Shown here one piece after another: positions 46,822 to 55,400 of a DNA stretch of 64,000 bases (within the stretch, counting starts at the first letter, position 1; each line of letters begins with the position of its first letter). Source of the stretch: Labrenzia sp. R4_2 (GTDB taxonomy: Bacteria; Pseudomonadota; Alphaproteobacteria; Rhizobiales; Stappiaceae). Where the stretch lies: positions 558,001 to 622,000 of the forward strand of contig NZ_JAGHRJ010000004.1 in assembly GCF_017743865.1 (NCBI RefSeq). The letters are read 5' to 3'. Both the position numbers and the translations under genes were made by a program. The notes beneath the pieces are model-generated. The model did not search any database, was not told where the DNA came from, and worked only from the letters and a program-made list of their open reading frames with translations.

Positions 46822-47247
46822 TTACCAACGGCTGTGCCAGTTGTACCGTGGGCCCAGAGGGCGGCTGCGCACGATATCTGCATTGCGGGAATCGACAACG
46901 AGTCTGACAGGAAAACCACGCCAGCCACGTGCTTTGATGATGTACATCGGGCCGCGGCGATCAATGATTTTGATCCGGTGAAACCCGCGATGGCGCAAGC
47001 TGCGGCGAATTTGCCTCGGCCCCAACTCGTATTGATGCCGACCGTGCCCACGGTCCCAACCGCGTCCTGGCCCTCCGCGGTGATCAACTGTCATCGTCAT
47101 GCCGCTGACTACCGGTGCTTTTGCCCCTAAACCTGAGACAGGAACAGCCTGCGCTTGCGTTGCTGCACCGGCGGCCAACAGCAAAACCGCTCCTGCAATC
47201 GGGGCAGACGCTTTCGTGGAAATGCGCTTCATGAGTGACATCGACAT
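46822..47247 (-). CDS. Small exported basic protein of unknown function
   Basis: A 141-residue protein starting at ATG 47247 with AGGAG 8 bases upstream; later ATGs are in frame. A signal peptide of about 35 residues (GAVLLLAAGAATQAQA) is followed by a Gly/Arg/His-rich middle. The C-terminus, QIRRSLRHRGFHRIKIIDRR to IVRSRPLG, has alternating residues that recall a PepSY-like domain. I do not recognise a family with certainty. It diverges from hsp20. A GC-rich hairpin at about 46783-46806 follows the stop. Confidence 0.65.
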   Translation of the reverse strand: MSMSLMKRISTKASAPIAGAVLLLAAGAATQAQAVPVSGLGAKAPVVSGMTMTVDHRGGPGRGWDRGHGRHQYELGPRQIRRSLRHRGFHRIKIIDRRGPMYIIKARGWRGFPVRLVVDSRNADIVRSRPLGPRYNWHSRW

Positions 47248-47376
47248 TGTGTGATCTCCTTGTTCCGCCAGCCCCGTGCTGGCGATACCCGGAGAATGCC
47301 GAAGAGCGTTTGAACGGGACCGGAAGGCCTTATTCATCTTCAGTTCATCGCCGATGTTACCGCTTGTCCACGACCT

Positions 47377-47406
47377 CTTGAATTCAAAATTCAGAATTCC
47401 CATCTC
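47377..47406 (+). promoter_or_regulatory. RpoH (sigma-32)-type promoter of hsp20
   Basis: CTTGAA at 47377-47382 and CCCATCTC at 47399-47406 are separated by 16 bases. Both fit the heat-shock consensus. Transcription would start near 47412 and give a leader of about 105 bases. Confidence 0.6.
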
Positions 47407-47411
47407 GATCA

Positions 47412-47517
47412 ATGCAGGCGCCAAAACGGGTCTGCGCAGCATTCCAGTCTCGCCAATGATGGGGGACAGGAGATCGCAAAAATCAGAAGTAACAGTTGCT
47501 CAAAGAGAGGACAGACT
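47412..47517 (+). promoter_or_regulatory. ROSE-like RNA thermometer leader of hsp20
   Basis: The predicted leader of about 105 bases ends in TTGCT (47496-47500), a 7-base loop and AGGA (47508-47511) 6 bases before the ATG. In ROSE elements U(U/C)GCU pairs with the Shine-Dalgarno AGGA and melts on heating. The helix extends by a G-C pair and a C-G pair with mismatches, as in short thermometers. No experiment supports this copy. Confidence 0.55.
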
Positions 47518-47997: not shown

Positions 47998-48022
47998 GAG
48001 GCGCCTGTCAAACAGGCGCCTC
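47998..48022 (+). terminator. Terminator after hsp20
   Basis: An 11-bp stem of GAGGCGCCTGT and its complement with a 3-4 base loop is followed by CTCTT, a short T-poor tail. It may also serve the converging ltaE gene. Confidence 0.55.
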
Positions 48023-48042
48023 TCTTCATATCTAGCGCAGCC

Positions 48043-49101
48043 TCAAGATATCTCCGACAGCGCACCCAAGAACGCTGCCACGTCGTCTTCGGTCGTTGCA
48101 AAGCTGCAGACCATGCGTAAGCAAACTTCATCCGCCTGCGGAGCGTGGTCCTCTGGCAGATCTTTCGCCGGCCATTCGTAAATTTTTGCGCCTTTGGCTT
48201 CCAGTTGCTCGAACTGTCGACGCTTCAGGATTGGAAACAGCTCATTGGCTTCAACAGGCCAGGCTGTTCTTCCACCAGCAGACCGAATGCCTTCGGCAAG
48301 TCTTAGTGCCATCGCGTTGGCGTGTGCTGCCGTATCCAGCCAGCTGTCTTCACTGAAATATCCATCAAACTGAGAAGCCACAAACCGGCTCTTGGAAAAA
48401 AGATGCCCGCCGCGCTTACGGAAATACTCAAATCCCTTGGCAGCTTCCAGATCGAAGAAGACGACCGCTTCCGCGCACCAGCACCCATTTTTAGTGGCAC
48501 CAAAGGAAAGAACATCCACCCCGGACTTCCAGGTCATGTCGGCGGGTGAACATCCAAGCGTTGCGAGCGCGTTTGCAAAACGAGCGCCGTCCATGTGCAA
48601 GGGAACGGACCGGGAAGCAGCGACGTTCTTGATCGCAGCAATCTCTGTCAGCGTGTAGACTGTTCCGCTTTCGGTCGCCTGGCTGATCGAGACACTTGCG
48701 ACCTGACCATGATGTACAACGCCATCGGGGAAAGCGGACATGGCTTCGATCAAGCCGCTTGCGTCAAATTTACCATTTGGCCCAGAAACACTGACCAGCT
48801 TGCCGCCGCTGGTCATGAACTCCGGACAATTGCACTCATCGACCTGAATGTGCGAATCGCGGTGGCAAAAAATGGCGCCGCCCGGTTTTCCGTAAGCCGC
48901 AAGGGCGAGCGAGTTTGCGGCCGTCCCTGTTGCCACAAAAAAAACTGCGACTTCCCGTTCAAACAGCTCGTTGAACTTTTTGGAAACGCTTTCGGTGAGA
49001 GAGTCACCGCCGTAAGCCGGCGCATGACCACTATTATGGCGGGTCAGCGCCGACATCACCGCCGGAGCTGCACCCGCCCAATTGTCACTGGCAAAATTCA
49101 T
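48043..49101 (-). CDS. ltaE: Low-specificity L-threonine aldolase
   Basis: A 352-residue pyridoxal phosphate enzyme that splits threonine to glycine and acetaldehyde. It starts MNFASDNWAGAAPAVM, as do other bacterial members. The cofactor Lys204 is in SFGATKNGC, and Asp171 in LHMDGARFANAL holds the PLP ring. The start codon is directly preceded by a GC-rich hairpin (8-bp stem 49102-49126) with no Shine-Dalgarno site visible. It follows the bufferin operon by 45 bases and could be read through from it. Confidence 0.88.
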   Translation of the reverse strand: MNFASDNWAGAAPAVMSALTRHNSGHAPAYGGDSLTESVSKKFNELFEREVAVFFVATGTAANSLALAAYGKPGGAIFCHRDSHIQVDECNCPEFMTSGGKLVSVSGPNGKFDASGLIEAMSAFPDGVVHHGQVASVSISQATESGTVYTLTEIAAIKNVAASRSVPLHMDGARFANALATLGCSPADMTWKSGVDVLSFGATKNGCWCAEAVVFFDLEAAKGFEYFRKRGGHLFSKSRFVASQFDGYFSEDSWLDTAAHANAMALRLAEGIRSAGGRTAWPVEANELFPILKRRQFEQLEAKGAKIYEWPAKDLPEDHAPQADEVCLRMVCSFATTEDDVAAFLGALSEIS

Positions 49102-49146
49102 GGGGCCGTTAAATCACCACGGCCCCAACCGGGCAACCACTATTTC

Positions 49147-49734
49147 CTAGTAGTACATTTCCCGCTTGCGGTACTGGACACCCAGTAGCGCATCGAGCGA
49201 AATCAAACCCGGTCCTTTTAAAGTCGGCACCAGAAGCAGGAAGATCCACAGCAGCCGATCATCCGCAATAATCGCGTAAGGATCTCCGTCAAACAGCGCC
49301 CCGATTGTCTTGGCATCGGCCCCATGACCCGTGATGTCGACATAAGTCATGACAATAATGAAGACGATCATGCCAAGGCTCGCCGCGCGGGTGAAAAGGC
49401 CAACAACAACAAGCACCGGCAGGATGAACTCGCCCCAAGTTCCGAGAAGGACAATCAGTCCATATGGAAAAAAGGCGATCTGGCTGGTGTCATAGCTGAC
49501 CTGCTCCATCATGGCCGGCAGCATTTGGGCATATGCGCCAGCCGTCGGCGTGAAGATGTTCATGATGTTGCCGCCAATTTTTGTGAGCGCCGAGTTCCAG
49601 AAAAACTGGAACAGCACAGCAGCAAAAATAAGCCGGGAGGCAAGACCCAAAAACCAGCCTTCAGTCAGCCGCTCAATTGCGCCGAACACCAACGTGTAAA
49701 GCCTTACAAAAAAACCAATAACCATCCGCTTCAT
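49147..49734 (-). CDS. bufD: DoxX family membrane protein of the bufferin operon
   Basis: A 195-residue inner-membrane protein starting at ATG 49734 after GAGGCT. Five hydrophobic segments are visible, with LASRLIFAAVLFQFFWNS, GEFILPVLVVVGLFTRAAS and LLWIFLLLVPTLKGPG. These match the DoxX/DoxD family. It follows bufC by 32 bases. In known bufferin loci a DoxX protein is often the last gene; its role is not settled, and redox or export support has been proposed. The symbol follows that usage and is provisional. Confidence 0.8.
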   Translation of the reverse strand: MKRMVIGFFVRLYTLVFGAIERLTEGWFLGLASRLIFAAVLFQFFWNSALTKIGGNIMNIFTPTAGAYAQMLPAMMEQVSYDTSQIAFFPYGLIVLLGTWGEFILPVLVVVGLFTRAASLGMIVFIIVMTYVDITGHGADAKTIGALFDGDPYAIIADDRLLWIFLLLVPTLKGPGLISLDALLGVQYRKREMYY

Positions 49735-49766
49735 AGCCTCTTTTGTTGTTTCTAGCCGGATCCCGC

Positions 49767-50558
49767 TTAGGCGGGTTCTTTGGTCTGCAAACCGGCAAGA
49801 GCCCCATTTGATAGAAAGTTCGACAAACAATCAGCCAGTGTAAAACCGCTGTCTATTTCAAGTGCCGTTTCAGCCGCTTCCCCCAACGTTGCCCCAGAAA
49901 AAACTGCGCCACCGAACGTGGCATGGCTTGGTTCCAAAACCCGGACATCGACATCAAACTCTGGCCGGACGATCAGCACGGGCTGGGCAACAGAGAGATC
50001 GATCTGCGATTGCTCTCCATCTTTGAACCGATTGACCTTCACGAGATCCCAGATCGGCCACTCTGAAGCCACGATCGTTGCGGCGGGGTGGCGCTGAAAT
50101 CTCACGCCTCCAAGATCTGTGGGCGGGATCGTCGCTAGAGCGGCCGGATCAAAAACTTCACAGTCTTTCGCATGGTAGGATTGAAGCCAAGCCCATTCCA
50201 GGCGCGCCACATCTTCCAGATAAGGATAGGCCTTCAGCGGCGGGAATGCGCCAAGAAAACTTGGAAACTCTTCTCCATACCAGATCAGGACAGGGTTTGA
50301 CGGCTGATGTTCTGCGACAAACGCACGGGCCAAAGCCGCAAAATATTCGTCACCGAGGAGCGCTTTGATAGTCGGATAGGTCTCGCCCAGCGCCTCACAA
50401 AGGCTGACGATGACATTGTTCCTATAAACATTGAAGCGTTTCACGTCCGGCAGTCCATCGGGTCCGACAGCGCCTTCGGGTGTCCCGAGTTCCGGATTGA
50501 TGAGAGCGTCGCCAAAGTCAGCTGCGGAGAGCCTTGGCAGTGCAAACACTTGTGCCAT
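49767..50558 (-). CDS. bufC: BufC-type partner protein (DUF2063)
   Basis: A 263-residue protein with an N-terminal DUF2063 domain (about 10-100), read from KRFNVYRNNVIVSLCEALGETYP and YFAALARAFVAEHQPSNPVL. The rest has ARLEWAWLQSYHA and a beta-rich domain resembling MbnC/BufC. It likely recruits the precursor to the MNIO enzyme encoded just before it. Only one base separates the bufB stop from its ATG, so they are tightly coupled. No metal site is expected. Names follow the bufferin literature. Confidence 0.82.
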   Translation of the reverse strand: MAQVFALPRLSAADFGDALINPELGTPEGAVGPDGLPDVKRFNVYRNNVIVSLCEALGETYPTIKALLGDEYFAALARAFVAEHQPSNPVLIWYGEEFPSFLGAFPPLKAYPYLEDVARLEWAWLQSYHAKDCEVFDPAALATIPPTDLGGVRFQRHPAATIVASEWPIWDLVKVNRFKDGEQSQIDLSVAQPVLIVRPEFDVDVRVLEPSHATFGGAVFSGATLGEAAETALEIDSGFTLADCLSNFLSNGALAGLQTKEPA

Positions 50559-50559
50559 G

Positions 50560-51456
50560 TCAGCTGACCGCCTTCAGGTCTGCGTTTTCGGCACGACGCA
50601 GGATTTCCTGCGCAGCATCTGCTTCACGAAGCAAAACGGGCCATGCAGGAACATCATTGTCCCATTCAATCAATGTCGGCAGGGCGCCGTGCATTCCAAT
50701 CACGTCTTTGTAGAGAGCCCAAACAGCATCATCGACGGCGCGGTCATGCGCATCAATCAACAGCGGACGTCCCGCCTCGTCCATATCCGGAGCATGGCCT
50801 CCAAGATGTATCTCACCGACATATTGCATGGGAAATTCGTCCAGGTAAGCGGCCGGCGACTGTTCCTGGTTAGTACAGGACACGTAGACGTTGTTGACGT
50901 CGAGCAGCAGACCACACCCTGTCCGGCGAGTGATCTCTATAAGGAAATCCAACTCACTGAAGGTGCTCTGAGCATAGGCAATGTAAGTGGACGGGTTCTC
51001 CAAGAGCATCTGCCGCCCCATCACATCTTGAACTTCATCGATGTGATCGCACACGCGTATGAGAGTTGCCTGGTCGTATGGAACCGGCAAGAGGTCATTA
51101 TAGTAGGTCGTCTCGTGTGTAGACCAGGCCAGGTGTTCAGAGAACAGACCGGGCTCATAGCGTTTGTTCAACTCCGCGAGCCGAGCCAGGTGATCTTTGT
51201 TGAGCGGGTTTTCGCCGCCAATGGACAGACCAACCCCGTGAAGCGATAGCGGATAGATGTCGCGAATTGCCGTGAGTTGTTGATGCGGCCGCCCTCCGGA
51301 GCCCATATAGTTTTCCGCGTGAACTTCGAAAAAACCGATGTCCGGGTGGCTTTGAAGAATGTCGGCGACATGCTCCGCTTTCAAACCAGCGCCGGGCCGG
51401 TTCGGAACGGCCGCCTGAGTGCCAAAAGCAGAAACGGGTTGCTCGTCGGACCGCAT
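50560..51456 (-). CDS. bufB: MNIO family enzyme, bufferin maturase BufB (DUF692)
   Basis: A 298-residue TIM-barrel oxidase of the multinuclear non-heme iron family. Metal ligands are visible: Glu48 in VHAENYMG, His73 in SLHGVGLS, His108 in SEHLAW, Glu153 in LLENPSTY, Asp186 in [11 protein letters not shown], His217 in [10 protein letters not shown], His237 in DAHDRA and Glu264 in LIEWDND. MbnB and BufB turn cysteines into heterocycles in RiPP precursors. Its likely substrate is bufA just upstream. ATG 51456 with GGAG upstream is chosen over 51501. It is the second gene of the operon. Confidence 0.88.
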
Positions 51457-51486
51457 GGCAAGCTCCAGACCTTGAACTACGGTGTG

Positions 51487-51512
51487 AGGCGGGCGGCGCA
51501 AACCGCCAGCCT
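51487..51512 (-). promoter_or_regulatory. Hairpin between bufA and bufB
   Basis: An imperfect stem (AGGC and GGCGG with their complements, one mismatch) lies in the 101-base gap. It could stabilise the bufA message or weaken read-through to bufB. This is inference from position and pairing. Confidence 0.4.
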
Positions 51513-51557
51513 GAGTTCGTATGATCGCCCGTTAATGGCCGATCCGAATTCTTCCAA

Positions 51558-51863
51558 TTACGCTTCCGGAAGGTCGCGAGACAATTCCGTCAAGGACCCC
51601 TTGCGGCCATCCGGCAATTCCATTGATACGCATGTGCCTTTCGGAACCAGCGTCCAAGCGTTGCCTTGGTAGTCAACGGTTGAAGAACCGGCACACGTCG
51701 TGCCCGGACCGGCTTTACAATCGTTTTGGCCTTTCAGGGAAACACCATAGCATTTCTCTTTGGCTTGAGCATGGGCCGGTGTCGAAGTGGTCGCCGAAAG
51801 ACCTGCAATTGCAGTGGCAACGGCGCCAGCAACAACTGCTGCAGACATAGCCTTGTTTTTCAT
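51558..51863 (-). CDS. bufA: Bufferin precursor peptide BufA1 (DUF2282)
   Basis: A 101-residue exported precursor. The first 33 residues form a Sec-type signal peptide ([15 protein letters not shown], cut near AHA). The mature core has four cysteines, Cys38, Cys49, Cys57 and Cys78, in [27 protein letters not shown] and PKGTC. This spacing is that of DUF2282 bufferins. In Caulobacter the inner two cysteines become thiooxazoles and the product binds copper. AGAGGAG lies 6 bases before the ATG. It is the first gene of a four-gene operon. Confidence 0.88.
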
Positions 51864-51905
51864 ATCAAACTCCTCTGGTCAAAAAATCAGCGCAGCAACC
51901 ATGAT

Positions 51906-51933
51906 GCCGTATAAGTGCTGCTACACCCGTTAC
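51906..51933 (-). promoter_or_regulatory. Possible ECF-type promoter of the bufferin operon
   Basis: On the minus strand GTAACG (51933-51928) and TACGGC (51911-51906) are 16 bases apart. GTAAC is the -35 form known for SigF of Caulobacter, which controls bufferin genes. The -10 box matches poorly. The start would be about 35 bases before bufA. Confidence 0.3.
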
Positions 51934-52058
51934 ATGGCCGGATTGGCGTTCAATGGGAAATCAAACGCCTGTGACACTGCTGCGAGCTGTCACCTACCTT
52001 AGACTATTAAACGAAAGATTCTTACTCAAACCCAACTCAACGCGACGTTTCCGGACGA

Positions 52059-52088
52059 TTGGCACTTTACGTACGAAACAATTATAAT
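52059..52088 (+). promoter_or_regulatory. Sigma-70 promoter upstream of gltB
   Basis: TTGGCA (52059-52064) and a perfect TATAAT (52083-52088) are 18 bases apart. The next gene on the strand is gltB, which gives a leader of about 370 bases. Confidence 0.65.
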
Positions 52089-52094
52089 AGCGAC

Positions 52095-52463
52095 AAAGAA
52101 ACACACTTGCTCCTTGCAATGAAATCTGTCATGTTCCGGCCGCTTGGAATAGGACAGGCATACTGTCCTTTTGAGGTAAGGGAAACACCACCGGACCGCC
52201 GGTCGTGATAAATGTAAGATCCAAGCAGCCGCTTGCTCGGTCCGGGGAGGGCCTCCAGCAAGATGAGGCGATTGTGTTTCAACAGCGCTAACTGGCGCTG
52301 CGGCAATGCGACGGTTTGCCAGAACAAGCCGCTGCAGTAAGTACATCGACAGAGCCGGGGCAAAAGCCAGGGTTCACCGAGCCGCACTCTTGATGGAATG
52401 CGACCCGAACGGAACCCGACGCTCCAAACCACGGCTAACACTGGGGTAACAGTGAGGGCGCAC
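52095..52463 (+). promoter_or_regulatory. Long structured leader of gltB, possible attenuator
   Basis: The leader contains AGGACAG-GCATA-CTGTCC followed by TTTT (52151-52172), a terminator-like hairpin early in the leader. A second good hairpin is CAGCGC-TAACT-GGCGCTG near 52283-52300. It matches no riboswitch I can name, and it could carry a separate small RNA. Confidence 0.4.
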
Positions 52464-55400
52464 ATGACGAAGACAGAGCTGACGACCAGCACAGCCATGC
52501 AAGCAGGCCAGACGGAGACAAACGCCGTGACAGCCACGACACTTGCCGATCGACTGGGCACGGCCGCCGACAAAGGGCTCTACAATCCGTCGCGCGAACA
52601 CGATGCCTGCGGTGTTGGTTTTGTTGCGCACATGAAGGGCGCAAAATCCCACAAGATCGTTGCAGATGGACTGCAGGTTCTGGAGAACCTCACGCACCGC
52701 GGCGCAGTTGGTGCAGATCCGCTCATGGGCGACGGCGCCGGCATGCTGGTTCAAATCCCGCACGGGTTCTTCGAAGCCGAGATGTCTGCCGCTGGCACAC
52801 CGCTTCCGGAATTCGGCGGCTATGGCGTGGGCTTTATATTCTTGCCACAGGACGATGTCCTGCGTGCCAAGTGCGAAGAAATCGTAGAGCGGGTCATCAA
52901 AGCCGAAGGACAAGAGTTGATTGGCTGGCGCGATGTGCCGGTCGACAACGCGTCCCTTTCCAAAGCTCCAGACATCGCAGCCACCGAGCCGGTGTCCCGT
53001 CAGGTCTTCATCAAACGCTCTAATGGCGAGGATCAGGATGCGTTCGAGCGCCGGCTTTATGTTCTGCGCAAGGTGATCTCCAATACGGTGCGCGCGGAAA
53101 CAGATGCGGTCACCAAGGGCTTCTACATCGTCTCGCTGTCGAGCCAGACCATTGTCTACAAGGGCATGTTCCTCGCCTATCAGCTTGGTGCTTATTACAG
53201 CGACCTGAAGGATGAGCGGTTCACCTCTGCTCTCGCACTGGTTCACCAGCGTTTCTCGACCAACACGTTTCCGTCCTGGGACCTCTCCCACCCCTACCGG
53301 ATGGTGGCCCATAACGGCGAAATCAACACGCTCCGCGGCAACGTCAATTGGATGGCTGCCCGCCAGGCATCTGTTTCATCCGCGCTGCTGGGAGACGACA
53401 TCTCGAAGCTCTGGCCGATTTCCTATGAGGGACAATCAGACACAGCCTGTTTCGACAATGCGCTCGAATTCTTGGTGATGGGCGGTTACTCGCTCGCACA
53501 TGCTGCGATGATGCTGATCCCGGAGGCTTGGGCCGGTAACCCGCTGATGGATGACAATCGCCGTGCCTTTTACGAGTACCACGCTGCATTGATGGAGCCA
53601 TGGGACGGCCCGGCCGCCGTTGCTTTCACCGATGGCCGTCAGATCGGTGCGACGCTTGACCGGAACGGTCTGCGCCCGGCCCGCTACATTGTGACTGAGG
53701 ACGACTTCGTCATCATGTCATCTGAAGTTGGCGTTCTTCCAGTTGAAGAAGAAAAGATCGTCCAGAAATGGCGCCTGCAACCGGGCAAGATGCTGCTTAT
53801 CGACCTGGAAGAAGGCCGGATCGTCTCTGACGACGAAATCAAGCGCCAGTTGTCCACGGCCAACCCATATAAAGACTGGCTGCACAAGACACAGATCGTT
53901 CTGGAAGATCTGCCGGGCGTCCGCCAGATGGCCCCTGTCGCAGGGGAAAGCCTGCTCGACCGTCAGCAGGCCTTTGGCTACACCCAGGAAGACATCAAGC
54001 TTTTGATGACCCCGATGGCAACAGTCGGTCAGGAAGCCATTGGCTCCATGGGCACCGACACGCCAATCTCGGCGCTGTCAGACAAATCAAAGCTGCTTTA
54101 CACCTACTTCAAACAGAACTTCGCTCAGGTCACCAACCCGCCGATCGACCCGATCCGTGAGGAACTGGTGATGAGCCTGGTCTCGTTCATCGGACCGCGC
54201 CCGAACTTGTTTGACCTGAAAGGTCTGTCGACGTCCAAACGCCTGGAAGTCCGTCAGCCAATTCTGACCAACGAAGATCTGGAAAAAATCCGGGTAATCG
54301 GCGACATCGCCGACAATCAGTTCTCGGCCAAAACTCTGGACATCACCTACAACGCCGACAAAGGCGCTGAAGGTATGGAAGGCGCATTGGCCGAACTCTG
54401 CGAGCGTGCAGAAAAAGCAGTGCTCGACGGCTACAACATTATCATCTTGTCGGATCGCATGATCAACCGCTCGCGGATTGCGATCCCGGCCCTTTTGGCA
54501 ACGGCTGCCGTCCATCATCACCTGATCCGCAAAGGCCTGCGCACATCTGTCGGCTTGGTCGTTGAAACCGGTGAAGCCCGTGAAGTGCACCATTTCTGTG
54601 TTCTTGCTGGTTTTGGTGCCGAAGCGATCAACCCGTATCTTGCCTTCGAAACCCTTCTTTCCATGCACATGGAGATGGACTTCCCGGAGGAAGTTGACCA
54701 ATACGAAGTCGTCGAGCGCTACATCAAGTCGATCGACAAGGGCATCTTGAAGGTCATGTCCAAGATGGGAATTTCGACCTACCAGTCCTATTGCGGCGCC
54801 CAGATCTTTGACGCGGTTGGTCTCTCCTCTGAATTCGTCGAGAAGTACTTCTTCGGCACGGCGACCATGATCGAAGGCATTGGCCTGAGTGAAGTTGCCC
54901 AGGAGACCGTTCAGCGCCATTCCGAGGCGTTCGGCGATGTTGCAATTCTGCGCCGATCGCTGGATGTTGGCGGCGAATACGCTTACCGGATCCGCGGCGA
55001 AAACCACATGTGGACGCCAGATTCCATTGCCAACCTGCAGCATGCTGTCCGCTCCAAGCTTCCGGACATGTACCGGACGTTCGCAAAAGAAGTGAATCAG
55101 GAAAGCGGACGCTTCGCGATCCGTGGCCATTTTCGGATCAAAAATGCAGAGGAAATCGGCCGATCCGAAATCGACATCTCCAAGGTTGAGCCCGCTGAGA
55201 ACATCGTCAAGCGGTTCGTCACCGGGGCAATGTCGTTCGGGTCGATTTCGAAAGAAGCCCATTCCAGCCTTGCCGTCGCCATGAACAAGATTGGCGGCAA
55301 GTCCAACACCGGTGAAGGCGGCGAAGAGCCAGAACGTTTCAATCCGCTCCCCGATGGCACCATGAACCCGCAACGGTCTGCCATCAAGCAGGTTGCCTCG

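Follow-up and report, generated by a model that had tools for sequence, protein, structure and literature searches.

Does the gene cluster beside gltB in Labrenzia sp. R4_2 encode a copper-binding bufferin, and is it controlled in the way described for its counterpart in Caulobacter? We analysed a stretch of 64,000 nucleotides of this genome (the window; contig NZ_JAGHRJ010000004.1, positions 558,001 to 622,000 of the forward strand), which holds the four genes bufA, bufB, bufC and doxX. We consider it very probable that bufABCD is an operon whose product is a Buf1-type bufferin that binds copper in the periplasm, acted on at 51956-51975 by another regulator than SigF/NrsF, and with a hairpin that boosts the precursor over the enzyme. 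Membership of the Buf1 type is well supported, because of the cysteine pattern of the precursor, the structural matches of the BufC model and the kept site-3 residues of the enzyme. The chemistry, the export and the link with copper would be those of studied relatives. The four genes are as follows.

51558..51863, minus strand: bufA, Buf1 (DUF2282) precursor, 101 amino acids; PF10048 at 88.3 bits (Pfam cut-off 22.4)
50560..51456, minus strand: bufB, MNIO maturase, 298 amino acids from the ATG; PF05114 and NF050167 matches
49767..50558, minus strand: bufC, partner with DUF2063 and a C-terminal RRE-like domain, 263 amino acids; PF09836 at 88.9 bits (Pfam cut-off 27.2)
49147..49734, minus strand: bufD/doxX, DoxX-family membrane protein, 195 amino acids; PF07681 at 26.1 bits

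A preliminary description, made from the letters of the window, had proposed a complete bufferin operon: four minus-strand genes in the order bufA-bufB-bufC-doxX, a DUF2282 precursor with cysteines at 38, 49, 57 and 78, and one base between bufB and bufC. All of this was recovered. The four genes were found in that order with their families above the Pfam cut-offs, PF10048 recognises the precursor, its translation has the four cysteines, and only base 50559 separates bufB from bufC (the gaps are 101 bases between bufA and bufB and 32 between bufC and doxX). Families, cysteine pattern and gene order identify a bufferin operon of the Buf1 type. The longest bufB frame starts at an alternative TTG at 51501. 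The genome of 5.66 Mb encodes a single MNIO gene (bufB) and a single DUF2282 gene (bufA).

The four cysteines of BufA are invariant in 31 of 31 aligned sequences, and the pattern C-[YF]G...DC...C...C occurs in all 106 BufA frames of the fetched loci of relatives. By eye, the N-terminus in the alignment is Sec-like, with a positive start, a hydrophobic stretch and an A-x-A (...PAHA|QA). Of the cysteines of Buf1 proteins, the central ones are reported to be modified and the outer two to be joined in a disulphide (PMC12452194). By analogy, the modified pair in this BufA would be Cys49/Cys57, and the disulphide pair Cys38/Cys78.

The enzyme is equally typical. BufB matches PF05114 at 345.5 bits (Pfam cut-off 25) and the NCBIfam model NF050167 (MNIO_BufB, 'MNIO family bufferin maturase') at 378.9 (cut-off 310), and stays under the NCBIfam cut-offs for HvfB (222 of 360), MbnB (42 of 325), ApyH and ChrH. 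It aligns to the structure 3bww with an E value of 1.1e-37. In HvfB, the site-3 residues are N175, D242 and H244, whose replacement kills the enzyme (PMC13419390). Through the 3bww alignment they correspond to N188, D235 and H237 in BufB, all kept. The earlier claim that BufB has all its metal ligands therefore holds for these three residues, the mapping having covered site 3.

For the partner, a sequence-only search of the PDB returned no match. An AlphaFold2 model of BufC, built from 31 sequences, reached a predicted local distance difference test (pLDDT) score of 91.9, and a Foldseek search with it retrieved chain 8hci_A of TglHI (E 1.2e-6) and 3dee, the Neisseria NGO1945 structure (E 3.8e-5), with template-modelling scores of 0.5-0.6. 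Both structures are named in the landscape paper in connection with MNIO partners (PMC12452194). By its PF09836 match and this model, BufC is a type-1 partner, DUF2063 plus an RRE-fold domain. A DoxX gene is frequent in Buf1 clusters, not universal, and it is present in this one.

By analogy with the studied systems, BufA would be made with a Sec signal peptide doubling as recognition leader, and the BufB-BufC pair would act in the cytoplasm, oxidising Cys49 and Cys57 to 5-thiooxazoles. The modified peptide would be exported by Sec, Cys38 and Cys78 would form their disulphide, and the thiooxazoles would keep copper bound in the periplasm, DoxX being a presumed auxiliary membrane protein. Transcription would be driven by another regulator at the conserved element at 51956-51975, not by a SigF/NrsF switch, and the hairpin after bufA may help to make more precursor than enzyme.

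The place of the operon had been called unexpected, a surprise that the genus (Roseibium/Labrenzia) does not bear out. All 36 genus loci that were fetched have gltB beside the operon: 21/21 in one set (L011-L019, L021-L032) and 15/15 Roseibium/Labrenzia loci in another (L033-L043, L045, L047, L049, L082), and these sets may overlap in species. The same adjacency is found in Stappia, Breoghania, Methyloceanibacter and an Afifellaceae assembly; a threonine-aldolase-like gene stands between gltB and the operon in Peteryoungia, Salaquimonas, Nitratireductor and two further assemblies. The linkage thereby extends to several distant Hyphomicrobiales. Exactly one MNIO gene is present in each of 37 genus genomes, the own one included; 52 of the 61 genomes searched encode at least one. 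Since the adjacency recurs and every one of the 37 genomes has its one MNIO gene, the gene set is a resident of the genus and not an insertion. BufB is 92% identical to its homologue in an uncultured Labrenzia assembly, the closest named one among the matches listed, followed by Roseibium and Labrenzia strains.

For wider comparisons, we used as loci of relatives the best 80 matches to the window's BufB (L033-L112), which together with the own locus (L001) give 81 rows; fractions taken from them are no census. A locus is called gltB-linked when a gltB match lies inside it (flanks of up to 5 kb), and short contigs can hide gltB. In nine loci (L069, L070, L073, L076, L081, L094, L099, L054, L056) the distance between bufB and bufC exceeds the typical one by about 1 kb, which leaves room for an inserted gene (compare the 'adjamnio-VI' genes of PMC12452194). 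Promoter patterns, BufA tails and the BufB tree were studied in 76 of the 81 rows, five (L061, L076, L083, L092, L095) having no BufB frame by the start rule. The gltB-linked operons as one clade were tried on the tree and rejected: six label changes are needed and the well-supported branches force at least three, the deep branches being weak. Because the tree splits these operons, we claim no single origin of the gltB linkage.

If the peptide is of the Caulobacter type, is its control too? The buf1 operon of Caulobacter (CC3254-CC3257, or CCNA_03363-03366) has the DUF2282-DUF692-DUF2063-DoxX order of the window, in one operon (PMC3511200, PMC8224329). Both Caulobacter operons are reported to need SigF, with a GTAACC-N16-CGAA promoter and NrsF as negative regulator (anti-sigma) (PMC3511200). 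Copper is described as inducing the Caulobacter copies in all conditions, a behaviour shared by few genes, and a mutant in sigF as being copper-sensitive (PMC8224329). In Sinorhizobium, from a related bacterial order, the operon SMb20530-SMb20527 also has DUF692 and DUF2063 genes; it is a target of RpoE7/ECF16, lies next to rpoE7 and is raised by RpoE7 overexpression from a TGTAAC...CGAA promoter (PMC6180224), whereas the operon of the window is linked to gltB and has another element.

Both NrsF and the Caulobacter promoter were looked for and not found. NrsF (PF06532) was not detected in any of the 37 genus genomes, the own one included, in a search that found the Caulobacter positive control; it is present in 5 of the 61 genomes searched. 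No GTAACC-N16-CGAA promoter lies within 330 nucleotides upstream of bufA in the window, and across the 76 BufB-bearing loci a loosened SigF-type pattern upstream of bufA occurs in 0/26 gltB-linked loci and in 23/50 others. A TGTAAC at about -80 of bufA was rejected as a SigF/ECF16 promoter: its spacing and -10 are unfit, and it is not kept in the aligned relatives. The copper buffering that the preliminary description took from Caulobacter would apply here by analogy with studied relatives. For regulation, the Caulobacter copper evidence is not simply transferable, because the SigF switch was not found in the window or the genus.

What lies upstream of bufA instead is a conserved block, next to a presumed promoter of gltB:

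51956..51975, minus strand: conserved element GTCACAGGCGTTTGATTTCC, candidate promoter or operator, about 95-112 nucleotides upstream of bufA, from an alignment of 22 upstream regions
52059..52088, plus strand: sigma-70-like promoter TTGGCA-18-TATAAT, 11/12 matches, presumably of the divergent gltB, outside the operon

In the 22 aligned regions (genus and Stappia), the block GTCAC-N3-CGTTTGATTTCC, at some 110-120 nucleotides from bufA, is conserved amid otherwise variable sequence. The TATAAT block of the presumed gltB promoter is also visible there; sigma-70-like matches show no excess in the stretch (2, against 1.7 in shuffles). One element site with no or one mismatch was found in 42 of 45 genus genomes, and in all 34 of these with a known position of the MNIO gene it precedes bufB by a few hundred bases. 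The remaining three are G014, with a two-mismatch site at buf, and G013 and G022, with none in the list. The core TTGATTTCC occurs within 250 nucleotides of bufA in 19/26 gltB-linked loci (14/16 in Roseibium, 5/10 in others) against 1/53 other loci, counted in 79 of the 81 rows (L084 and L094 have no bufA match). For msrP, a SigF partner gene in Caulobacter, the own genome has two Oxidored_molyb genes, and neither locus carries the exact TTGATTTCC. In the window the element is also flanked by a perfect inverted repeat, GGCGTT/AACGCC, which was discarded, as relatives do not keep it. A TTGA-N7-TTGA spacing may point to an OmpR-type response regulator site.

The C-terminal end of BufA mostly follows the gltB linkage too:

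51561-51600, minus strand: BufA RDLP tail, given as an example of the regular-expression match

Scored in this way, the tail GSL..L.RDLP is present in 24/26 gltB-linked and 7/50 other BufA proteins (L112, with RDIP, was counted as without). Most of the remaining proteins have a TPNGxGSLTP-like end. As the gltB-linked operons do not group together in the BufB tree, the set with the RDLP tail is a loose class. We suggest tentatively, as a possibility that falls somewhat short of an even chance, that the gltB-linked bufferin operons of Hyphomicrobiales are a regulatory class of their own, with a dedicated regulator at one genomic site (GTCAC-N3-CGTTTGATTTCC, perhaps the direct repeat TTGA-N7-TTGA) in place of SigF/NrsF and with a class-specific RDLP tail. 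Their bufferin may then answer a signal other than that of Caulobacter.

A further candidate regulatory feature lies between precursor and enzyme genes:

51487..51512, minus strand: GC-rich hairpin, possible mRNA stabiliser or attenuator, predicted by folding of the bufA-bufB gap; not followed by a T-run

Strong hairpins (-12 kcal/mol or lower for the best local fold) are found in the bufA-bufB gap of 61 of 71 loci, drawn from the 81 rows, in gltB-linked and SigF-type loci alike, and those of relatives usually have no T-run. Compared with dinucleotide shuffles in 64 loci (gaps of 40-180 nucleotides), the gaps have a median z of -2.1 (33/64 at or below -2); for stretches of the same length ahead of bufA it is +0.1 (7/64). 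Of the 8 consensus pairs in 15 Roseibium gaps, 6 have changed on both sides in one or more sequences, but covariation contributes little (a term of -0.52 kcal/mol), and one or more of the 15 rows looks out of register. An intrinsic terminator after bufA was rejected, as the hairpin has no T-run and the terminator listing has none there. Rfam gave no match in 48000-53000, and the passages of PMC12452194 and PMC12668002 that were searched mention no hairpin or stem-loop. We infer that the hairpin is likely a stabiliser giving more precursor than enzyme.

Several results weigh against a copper-binding Buf1 operon under its own regulator and hairpin. The only bufferin precursor model in NCBIfam that matches BufA, BufA2 (NF050166), gives 23.9 of 60 bits, far under its cut-off, a low score that is expected because BufA is of the Buf1 type; a Buf2 (BufA2) bufferin was itself rejected on this score and on the four cysteines, against 6 or 12 in Buf2. 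The predicted structure of BufA is poor (pLDDT 68.5) and its fold was not used, and the DoxX match passes its Pfam cut-off (23.6) narrowly. The absence of SigF rests on the searches for NrsF and the promoter, ECF sigma factors themselves not having been searched. The core TTGATTTCC is missing in 2/16 Roseibium and 5/10 other gltB-linked loci. No regulon emerged either: a 17-base pattern with up to three mismatches matches the own genome 12 times, as often as the reversed-pattern control (12), and up to two mismatches in the 45 genus genomes give 67 sites (42 with 0-1, 25 with 2, including the buf site of G014) against 16 for the control. With one mismatch, TTGATTTCCNANTGA has 6 sites against 2 in the control, the bufA site being the only exact one and the neighbours of the other five (unannotated frames) being uninformative. 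The regulator acting at the element is a putative one. Finally, the gap in the window gains only slightly on shuffles in stability (z -1.73; 13/200 shuffles are as stable).

Could the upstream element and the hairpin belong to gltB, or be DNA or repeat features that have nothing to do with the expression of the bufferin? The element lies within the divergent gap between gltB and bufA, at a fixed distance to both genes in Roseibium, and intergenic hairpins are common in bacteria. The five loci in which a threonine-aldolase gene separates gltB from bufA tell the two neighbours apart: the core stays upstream of bufA in three, has one mismatch in a fourth and is missing in the fifth, and is absent from the gap on the gltB side in 5/5. 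The contrast in median z between the bufA-bufB gap and the region upstream of bufA, given above for 64 loci each, also argues against this explanation, which we regard as unlikely.

An operon that is a bufferin by build might nevertheless serve another stress (oxidative, other metals, or gold and silver as in gig operons), copper being secondary in Roseibium. The same Caulobacter regulon is reported to respond to chromate and cadmium (PMC3511200, PMC8224329), MerC fusions suggest other metals (PMC12452194), and neither the NrsF nor the promoter search found the SigF switch here. A conserved MNIO cluster of Microbulbifer was, moreover, undetected in proteomes with added copper, but its precursor is of a different, repeat type (PMC12538549). 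Precursor, enzyme and partner in the window, by contrast, agree in every feature tested with the Buf1 type that binds copper, and we hold a primary role in another stress to be quite improbable. The silence of the Microbulbifer cluster in its authors' conditions (PMC12538549) could also be cited in favour of a decayed or unused gene copy in the window. With four intact frames, kept catalytic-site residues and a single copy in 37/37 genus genomes, this is barely credible. A functional copper-binding Buf1 operon remains the reading that we prefer.

The bufABC(D) loci that are linked to gltB in Stappiaceae and other Hyphomicrobiales (in part L034-L049, L055, L065, L074, L079, L082, L087, L096, L101, L103) share with the window the neighbourhood of gltB, threonine-aldolase-like, Hsp20 and S33 hydrolase genes, and mostly also the RDLP tail and the TTGATTTCC element. 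They differ in the threonine-aldolase gene, which stands before or after buf, and 4 of 26 (L046, L065, L087, L103) have no DoxX match to the protein of the window. The Hsp20 and S33 hydrolase genes often come after the operon in gltB-linked loci. The order in L079, L087, L096, L101 and L103 is gltB, threonine-aldolase-like gene, bufABC, Hsp20, hydrolase, and in Roseibium gltB, bufABCD, threonine-aldolase-like gene, Hsp20, hydrolase, a small rearrangement within a conserved neighbourhood. Between the hydrolase and Hsp20 genes of the window, a frame of 206 amino acids rich in Arg and His (46822-47442, minus strand) has no Pfam or NCBIfam match; tblastn matches it at the same place in Roseibium loci with 33-58% identity.

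Among other MNIO systems, HvfABC (oxazolin), FonABC (fontiphorin) and methanobactin likewise combine the enzyme with a partner (PMC12668002, PMC13419390), and HvfABC and FonABC are reported also to make 5-thiooxazoles (same sources). Their precursors differ from BufA in having EGKCG or Lys-Cys repeats, or in being the leader-peptide MbnA. The operon had been thought not to have been studied in such organisms. The literature matches listed include none on a bufferin of Roseibium, but MNIO/DUF2063 clusters with Cys-rich precursors have been noted in marine Pseudovibrio and Ruegeria (PMC12538549), and the Sinorhizobium operon has been mapped as an RpoE7 target (PMC6180224).

Bufferins number in thousands (PMC12452194), and one more bufferin operon therefore changes little. 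The family call made at the outset was right and the surprise about the place was not; the absent SigF switch together with a dedicated element is a modest new point. That a single-copy buf set is kept in every genus genome searched (37/37) matters a little. Caulobacter and Sinorhizobium are the only alphaproteobacterial models for which we found mapped promoters; control that departs from theirs would show a peptide wired to more than one sensor, and the conserved element is a concrete bait for finding that sensor.

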